DNA of 64,000 bases from Solobacterium sp. (GTDB lineage: Bacteria > Bacillota_I > Bacilli_A > Erysipelotrichales > Erysipelotrichaceae). The notes under the pieces are model-generated. The model ran no database searches, was not told the origin of the DNA, and saw only the letters and a program-made list of their open reading frames with translations. The DNA lies in the NCBI GenBank assembly GCA_017512725.1, contig JAFWEW010000040.1:1-64000 (forward strand), read 5' to 3'. A program made the translations under genes and the position numbers. Shown here piece after piece: positions 27,252-55,601 of this stretch; position 1 is the stretch's first letter; every line of letters begins with the position of its first letter.

Positions 27252-27479
27252 TTCGTTCTTCTTTCTCCAGAATTCTTCCGAGAATTCCCTGCGCTTTACC
27301 AGTTCTTCCATTTAGCCGGCAGTAATAATACCTGCAGGAAGTGCGACGATCGCAATTCCAAAGAGAGACGATGTCATCGACACCAGTCTTCCGATTACCG
27401 TAACCGGAAAGATATCTCCATAGCCTACGGTTGTCAGGGATACAGTTGCCCAGTATACCGCATCAAAGAACGAATTGAA
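27252..27479 (-). pseudogene. truncated voltage-gated potassium channel
   Basis: The frame encodes the pore and last helix of a Kv-type channel: FFDAVYWATVSLTTVGYGD, then SSLFGIAIVALPAGIITAG. These match the intact channel at 54831-55601 almost residue for residue. A TAA at 27314-27312 interrupts it where a Tyr codon is expected (AG-stop-MEELVKRRE continues in frame, like AEYMNELGK in the intact gene). Upstream of 27479 there is an in-frame TGA and no trace of helices S1-S5. It is therefore a 3' remnant with a nonsense mutation, about 40 bases downstream of a small double-glycine gene. Confidence 0.85.
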
Positions 27480-27519: not shown

Positions 27520-27738
27520 TCAATTCTGGTGATTCTCTTTCTGCCGGGATGTGCGTTCTTCTCTCAATATCCGTAAACATCTACTGCAGTAGCCGCCGTT
27601 ATCTCTCCATTTACAGACAGAAAGATGGCAGCCGCATCTCTGGCAGGTAAGCCCATATGCGCCGCCTGATACCTGTTCCGCATTAATGTCAGTCAACTTA
27701 TCCTTTTCGGACTTGATTTCCAGCTTCTTCTCTTCCAT
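27520..27738 (-). CDS. double-glycine-leader cysteine-rich small protein
   Basis: A 72-residue protein. The N-terminus (MEEKKLEIKSEKDKLTDINAEQ) ends in VSGGAYG with GG at 25-26, a double-glycine-type leader. The rest holds Cys32, 35, 37, 42, 51 and 54 in TCQRCGC...C...YCSRC, compatible with a zinc ribbon or disulfide knot, and a basic tail. The start at 27738 is chosen because AAGGGAG lies 9 bases upstream. It is divergent from a similar gene at 27942 and separated from it by 203 bases. No processing transporter is nearby. Alternatives are a non-exported zinc-ribbon protein or a bacteriocin-like or signalling peptide. Confidence 0.72.
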   Translation of the reverse strand: MEEKKLEIKSEKDKLTDINAEQVSGGAYGLTCQRCGCHLSVCKWRDNGGYCSRCLRILREERTSRQKENHQN

Positions 27739-27941
27739 TCTTTTCATCTCCCTTAACCATGAAAGTATACGAACAATCAGACATCTGTCCACTGATTGTG
27801 AAAAGGCCAGGAAGAATCAGATCCTCACAGATCGTGCGTATTCTGTATGTGACTGCATTTTGCAGCCACTTTTTTTCAGAAACTGTGTGGATTCTGTTCT
27901 CAAAAAGCGTATATAGTTATGTAAAGGGAGGAAATAATCTC

Positions 27942-28118
27942 ATGGAAGATAAGAAAATTGAACAGTGCGCTGAAAACATTGCAGGCGGAAGCCTTGCATC
28001 TGCAAAAGGCACCGATTATGACCGCTGCCCGATGTGCGACAATCCGACACCGGTAGAAAGCAACGGACGCTGCCATTGCTCGAACTGCGGACACTCCTGG
28101 ACCGCAGGCAGCCACTAA
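27942..28118 (+). CDS. double-glycine-leader zinc-ribbon-like small protein
   Basis: A 58-residue protein that starts MEDKKIEQCAENIAGGSLAS, with GG at 15-16 as in double-glycine leaders. The mature part has CPMC (Cys29, Cys32) and CHCSNCGHSW (Cys44, 46, 49), an almost textbook zinc ribbon. A strong AAAGGGAGG ribosome site lies 10 bases upstream and two hairpin terminators follow. It is divergent from the related gene at 27520-27738; the shared MxDKK/MEEKK start, GG and paired Cys suggest one family. Whether it is exported and what it does are unknown. Confidence 0.75.
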   Translation: MEDKKIEQCAENIAGGSLASAKGTDYDRCPMCDNPTPVESNGRCHCSNCGHSWTAGSH

Positions 28119-28132
28119 TCCATTTACGGATG

Positions 28133-28156
28133 ACACCGGCACAGCCGGTGTTTTTT
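28133..28156 (+). terminator. rho-independent terminator
   Basis: Perfect ACACCGGC/GCCGGTGT stem, 3-base loop and T-run, 14 bases after the zinc-ribbon-like peptide gene. Confidence 0.92.
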
Positions 28157-54830: not shown

Positions 54831-55601
54831 TCACTTCGGACTGTCGGAATCACTTTTTTTAGATGGATTGTTCTTTCCCAGTTCATTCATATATTCCGCT
54901 GTAATAATACCAGCCGGCAATGCCACGATTGCGATTCCGAAAACGGAAGAAATCATCGTCACAGTGCGCCCGATCGTAGTGACCGGATAAATATCACCAT
55001 AACCAACCGTTGTCAGAGAAACGGTAGCCCAGTATACCGCATCAAAGAAGGTTCCAAAGGATTCCGGTTCTACGGTAAAAACAACCATTGCCGAAACAAG
55101 GATATAACCAACTGCCAGTGTGCCTACCGCAATCAGGGATTCCTTTGAGGAAACCAGAACATCCCCGATAATCTTAAAGGTTCGGGAATAACGCATTGCC
55201 TTAAATACCCGCAATACACGCATCGCCCGAAACAGACGCAGTACACGCAGCACCTGAAAACCGGAATGCACAAGACTGAGGGCAGGCAGAATGGAAAGCA
55301 GGTCAATGATTGCCATCAGAGAAAACGGATAACGCAGAAACGAACGGAACCCTGCCTTTTTGAATTTATAGTCAGCAGTTGCCCATCGCAGCACATAGTC
55401 TACGATAAAAATAATGGCGGTAATATAGTCTGTAACACGAAAAAACGGAGGTTCCACCTTAAAGGCAAGCGGTACCAGGCTGATGATGATCGCTGCGATC
55501 ATCAGGTAGTCGTATAGTGCACTTTTCCAGTCTCCGCGGTCTGCTTTCTCGATTAATTCAAATACCCGCATCCGGAACAGTTCGACATGTACTTTAAACA
55601 T
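54831..55601 (-). CDS. voltage-gated potassium channel
   Basis: A 256-residue Kv-type subunit with six helices. S4 carries spaced Arg/Lys (VLRVLRLFRAMRVLRVFKAMR, about 118-137) and the selectivity filter TVGYGD is at 198-203. The C-terminal tail is short and basic, without a cyclic-nucleotide-binding domain, so it should respond to voltage alone. Four copies would form the pore. A pseudogene with nearly the same pore sequence lies at 27252-27479, indicating a second channel gene was lost. The gene is monocistronic; its promoter region lies in the 130 bases upstream. Confidence 0.94.
   Translation of the reverse strand: MFKVHVELFRMRVFELIEKADRGDWKSALYDYLMIAAIIISLVPLAFKVEPPFFRVTDYITAIIFIVDYVLRWATADYKFKKAGFRSFLRYPFSLMAIIDLLSILPALSLVHSGFQVLRVLRLFRAMRVLRVFKAMRYSRTFKIIGDVLVSSKESLIAVGTLAVGYILVSAMVVFTVEPESFGTFFDAVYWATVSLTTVGYGDIYPVTTIGRTVTMISSVFGIAIVALPAGIITAEYMNELGKNNPSKKSDSDSPK

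Follow-up and report, generated by a model that had tools for sequence, protein, structure and literature searches.

This report concerns two small genes, A and B, in a 64,000-nucleotide stretch of DNA from Solobacterium sp. (contig JAFWEW010000040.1, positions 1 to 64,000; here called the window), and the set of genes for double-glycine-leader proteins to which they belong. Gene A (27520-27738, minus strand) codes for 72 amino acids beginning with MEEKK, divided into a 26-residue double-glycine leader, MEEKKLEIKSEKDKLTDINAEQVSGG, and a core of 46 residues. Gene B (27942-28118, plus strand) codes for 58 amino acids beginning with MEDKK; its double-glycine leader, MEDKKIEQCAENIAGG, is short (16 residues) and degenerate, and its core comprises 42 residues. 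The Gly-Gly pair occupies residues 25-26 in A and 15-16 in B. Cysteines C32/C35 and C51/C54 of A form a zinc-ribbon-like CxxC-x15-CxxC pattern, and C29/C32 and C46/C49 of B the pattern CxxC-x13-CxxC. The two genes are divergent, with exactly 203 bases between their start codons. A first-pass annotation had described the pair in these terms, and its coordinates, ME(E/D)KK starts, Gly-Gly sites, paired cysteines and 203-base gap are all correct. By a strict scan, A and B are the only short double-glycine-leader open reading frames (ORFs) in the window.

Each gene is preceded by a promoter motif of the extracytoplasmic function (ECF) type, TGGA-N16-CGTATA, located at 27766-27791 (minus strand), 27 nucleotides 5' of the start codon of A, and at 27888-27913 (plus strand), 28 nucleotides 5' of that of B. 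Within the window the motif occurs exactly twice, once ahead of each gene. Ribosome-binding sites are GGGAG for A (27748-27752, minus strand) and GGGAGG for B (27926-27931, plus strand). Gene B is followed by an intrinsic terminator (28132-28152, plus strand) with a 9-bp stem, 6 G-C pairs and a T-run, and this stretch folds strongly (z=-5.4). A longer frame for B, starting at 27759, was rejected: it would begin before the promoter motif, and it is the later ATG that has the ribosome-binding site. Rfam and tRNA scans gave no match.

The same promoter recurs throughout the host genome (2.72 Mb, 97% complete; its contigs are cited as C1, C12, C20, C23 and C45). The exact motif is found at 28 sites, compared with 3 in the reversed control. 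By our tally, at least 16 of these 28 sites lie ahead of double-glycine-leader ORFs, including several that had escaped the leader profile. It is also present, with spacing identical to that of A and B, ahead of a paralogue of A. A shared motif of fixed spacing, enriched ahead of the member genes, is what characterizes an ECF regulon. Profile and pattern searches, together with the promoter search, yielded approximately 30 small double-glycine-leader proteins, so the whole-genome check for further leader genes that the first-pass annotation had proposed was productive. Its treatment of A and B as a self-contained unit did not survive: the divergent pair belongs to a regulon defined by its promoter, whose approximately 30 genes are scattered over the genome and have cores of many types.

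Cores of the set are dissimilar and include zinc ribbons, SH3-like and helical domains and one 2[4Fe-4S] ferredoxin. About 12 are zinc-ribbon-like, A and B included, and many others lack cysteines or are SH3- or LysM-like (these two labels are our own reading of the sequences). Family-wide searches with A or B singly returned weak zinc-ribbon look-alikes without leaders and nothing else, and a search of genome contigs with A as query returned no relative. The paralogue of A (E=2.6e-9; contig C20, locus L053, 6291-6443, plus strand) adjoins another double-glycine-leader protein, one with several CxxC knuckles. Its frame is interrupted by TGA precisely at the fourth motif cysteine, which shortens the protein. 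Insertion of selenocysteine at this codon was considered and rejected, since no SelB exceeded the cut-off in the genome; the TGA is therefore probably a nonsense mutation reflecting decay, which implies that the regulon turns over. Two further members (L064, 1501-1968; L220, contig C1:18582) have longer, Nif11-like leaders followed by Gly-Gly and a zinc-ribbon-like core, and one of the two has two Gly-Gly motifs in tandem. The ferredoxin (L215, contig C23:773-1018, minus strand) matches Fer4 over the cut-off and has an exact regulon promoter upstream. Another double-glycine zinc-ribbon frame (L069, 1485-1707, plus strand) has no ATG, GTG or TTG ahead of its leader; after a plausible ribosome-binding site it offers ATT alone.

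Leaders of the family follow the consensus L/I(-12)-x-D-E-E-L(-7)-E-x-V(-4)-S-G-G, and the 139 leaders examined mostly carry valine or isoleucine at -4, leucine at -7 and leucine or isoleucine at -12. This is the motif needed by the C39 protease LahT, which requires Val-4, Leu-7 and Leu-12 in the leader (PMC6363468). The leader of A, with V-4, A-7 and L-12, matches at two of these three positions; its leave-one-out score of 11.1 was reached by none of 121 background Gly-Gly sites, and by these measures it appears to be a good leader. Export of B is less certain than that of A, because its leader is degenerate and matches at one position out of three. The leader-peptide reading given in the first-pass annotation thus holds overall and suits A well, and it is weakened in the case of B.

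The likely ligation of zinc by the cores is suggested by their cysteines. Two spaced cysteine pairs occur in 37 of 140 cores, compared with 4.2 (standard deviation 1.8) after shuffling of residues within each core; the rule is loose, and a few of the cores counted, such as the ferredoxin, are other metal sites. The zinc-ribbon-like character ascribed to A and B is accordingly greatly over-represented among leader proteins. In four cross-genome pairs of 39-65% identity none of the 16 motif cysteines has been lost, and siblings from the same genome exceed the Pfam cut-offs for the zinc ribbons PF12760 and PF01096 and for Lar, PF14354. The core of B was modelled by AlphaFold2 with four short strands, pLDDT (predicted local distance difference test) being 85-87 over residues 31-50; the PDB chains that match it best are mostly of zinc-ribbon type, but no match is significant (E >=0.21).

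Two ATP-binding cassette (ABC) transporters of the C39 type are encoded in the genome, on contigs C45 and C12. The one on C45 belongs to a tight operon with an ECF sigma factor at its head, a 161-amino-acid HlyD-like protein, NHLM_ABC1 (TIGR03796; 923 bits, above cut-off) and NHLM_ABC2 (TIGR03797; 694 bits, slightly below cut-off). Catalytic residues Cys28, His102 and Asp118 of its C39 domain are intact and are invariant in seven relatives; the C39 transporter on which the export reading had been made to depend is thus present. Its closest named relatives come from an uncultured Solobacterium (78%) and an uncultured Erysipelotrichaceae bacterium (74%). On C12, the C39 domain reads E-N-G-A where active ones have E-C-G-A and the histidine is missing; because of these two changes the protease domain is probably dead, and this transporter is unlikely to process the leaders. 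Ahead of the NHLP-like (nitrile hydratase leader peptide-like) transporter pair on C12 (L055, 8447-8929 and 9020-13450) lies a gene for a zinc-ribbon protein that has no Gly-Gly leader.

Leaders and exporter coincide across genomes. Among 196 genomes of the family, two or more leader hits occur in 11 and TIGR03796 over the cut-off in 11, and 10 genomes have both (p=6.6e-15; p=1e-13 with the own genome removed), and a repeat at class level gave p=4.7e-5, all in tests that ignore shared ancestry. Genomes of the same genus without the exporter had no leader hits. Around 80 exporter loci of named Clostridia and Erysipelotrichia, 46 double-glycine-leader ORFs were found within 10 kb, compared with 2 in reversed sequence; several of the 46 have zinc-ribbon cores and others LysM-like ones. 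In the relative G149, a double-glycine-leader gene for an SH3-like protein adjoins the exporter and its sigma factor. The tie between leader genes and a C39 exporter that the first-pass annotation had supposed is borne out by this pattern.

Linkage of a sigma factor to the exporter recurs in three relatives, and related genomes carry TGCCA-N-CGTATA ahead of their leader genes. In our genome the C45 sigma factor plausibly reads the regulon motif, judging only by its position; the exact motif is absent upstream of the exporter operon itself. The leader genes of the relative G190 have repeated TGTAA(T/C) elements in place of the ECF motif, and there a response-regulator-like gene (L249, 3872-4669) follows the exporter, possibly by a regulator swap. 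Just downstream of A in the window, at 27294-27479 (minus strand), lies a decayed duplicate of a voltage-gated potassium channel, a remnant with a stop codon and 81% identity over 62 amino acids to the intact channel at 54831-55601.

We consider it probable that A and B are members of an ECF-driven, C39-exported double-glycine regulon. In this proposal many of the members would be transcribed from TGGA-N16-CGTATA by an ECF-type sigma factor, plausibly that of the C45 operon. The NHLP-type ABC exporter (TIGR03796, TIGR03797 and the short HlyD-like protein) would receive the leader in its C39 peptidase domain, cleave behind Gly-Gly and export the core. The cores of A and B would then fold outside as CxxC...CxxC zinc ribbons and act extracellularly or at the envelope, a site suggested because the same exporter would carry SH3-like and LysM-like cargo. 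Their likeliest role is that of bacteriocin-like or envelope and host-interaction modules. The proposal takes its basis from sequence, namely the leader, the promoter, the exporter with intact catalytic residues, the co-occurrence and the conserved cysteines; from these we infer the identity of the sigma factor, cleavage, export and zinc binding.

Several observations weigh against it. Gene B keeps a single recognition residue (I-4, with A-7 and K-12), and its leader scored lowest of 137 in leave-one-out scoring, a value equalled by 3% of background Gly-Gly sites. Neither A nor B has a family above cut-off in the Pfam/NCBIfam scan, zinc-ribbon families included, and the structure model of A (pLDDT 54) is too poor to use. 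The promoter is not universal, CGTATA being present for 13 of 22 own leader genes, and the choice of the cognate sigma factor is made among three ECF-like ones in the genome. No immunity-like gene stands beside A or B. The ferredoxin shares its leader and promoter with the other members and would seem out of place as a substrate of a transporter that takes unfolded chains.

Some of these points suit other explanations. Zinc ribbons are usually intracellular, and A and B could be cytoplasmic zinc-ribbon regulators whose Gly-Gly is incidental or a remnant, with the promoter as their sole tie to the regulon; the degenerate leader of B would agree with this, as would the ferredoxin sibling, which would function in the cytoplasm only. 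We hold this to be quite unlikely, as the leader of A outscores all 121 background sites, leaders co-occur with the exporter and double-glycine zinc ribbons adjoin exporters in other genomes. A narrower possibility is that B alone is a decaying member with a short leader that has lost export, while A is still exported, which is compatible with the preferred reading for A. The leader of B resembles MEDKKIETLSIEELEGVSGG minus a few residues, and the truncated paralogue of A on C20 indicates that members do decay; on the other hand, B has kept its promoter, ribosome-binding site, terminator, four ribbon cysteines and open frame, and such decay seems to us possible, though the less probable course.

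It is doubtful, in our judgement strongly so, that A and B are precursors of ribosomally synthesized and post-translationally modified peptides (RiPPs), with cores altered by thioether, azole or radical S-adenosylmethionine (rSAM) chemistry before C39 cleavage and cysteines serving as modification sites instead of zinc ligands. NHLP/Nif11 systems classically carry modified peptides (PMC2887384), the two siblings with longer leaders resemble the Nif11 type, and the paralogue of A gives a sub-threshold match to an rSAM-RiPP leader model. Against this, no modification gene was seen near A, B or the C45 exporter, the only regions searched for one; the cysteine spacing is the zinc-knuckle CxxC pattern, with siblings above Pfam zinc-ribbon cut-offs; and many sibling cores are cysteine-free or SH3- or LysM-like.

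The regulon to which we assign A and B can be compared with several known systems. Precursors of the NHLP and Nif11-derived (N11P) type use the TIGR03794/03796/03797 exporter (Haft 2010, PMC2887384), and our set shares with them the exporter families, Gly-Gly leaders, paralogous expansion and leader-exporter co-occurrence. Unlike theirs, the leaders here are mostly short (16-29 amino acids) and have no nitrile hydratase (NHase) or Nif11 domain, the neighbourhoods of A, B and the own exporter show no modification genes, the cores are small domain-like proteins and many promoters are of ECF type. Neither A nor B matches the NHLP (TIGR03793) or Nif11 (TIGR03798) leader domain, and a neighbour protein from another genome reached 13.5 bits with TIGR03793, whose cut-off is 50.9. 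The A/B system would work like export of double-glycine proteins by peptidase-containing ABC transporters (PCATs), and by leader domain it is not an NHLP/N11P precursor system. MAM of Faecalibacterium duncaniae, an abundant protein of 135 amino acids for which a hexameric lattice on the cell surface has been proposed (PMC12184118), is likewise a small non-bacteriocin protein with a double-glycine leader, from gut Bacillota and co-occurring with a PCAT; it is one protein, whereas we see about 30 dissimilar cores, and a zinc ribbon is not described for it. In the LahA/LahT system of Lachnospiraceae C6A11 (PMC6363468) a single C39 protease likewise cleaves a large number of precursors, conserved in their leaders and varied in their cores, but these precursors are clustered and have Nif11-type leaders, whereas our genes are dispersed and their leaders mostly short. 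Class II bacteriocins and pheromones share the leader logic and the C39 transporter, but no immunity or histidine-kinase genes adjoin A or B.

A double-glycine leader usually suggests a bacteriocin, a pheromone or a RiPP. In this set a single leader precedes many unrelated small domains, zinc ribbons being the commonest recognisable type, and one promoter motif finds many of the genes. No description of an ECF-linked C39 export regulon was found in the open-access literature, and none of double-glycine zinc ribbons, which are not a described bacteriocin type there. We tentatively extend the proposal, as a possibility short of a probable one, to gut Erysipelotrichia and Clostridia at large: with one ECF sigma factor and one C39 exporter, they would secrete, by the dozen, mini-proteins that are folded, bind metal and carry no modification (zinc ribbons and possibly one ferredoxin-like protein), a rapidly diversifying exoproteome of cargo not described for this route. 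This raises the question of what use a cell has for zinc ribbons, and apparently a ferredoxin, once they are exported. If export is true, gut bacteria may release small metal-binding proteins of many kinds, and searching their genomes by promoter plus leader would uncover whole groups of secreted small proteins now annotated as hypothetical or zinc-binding.
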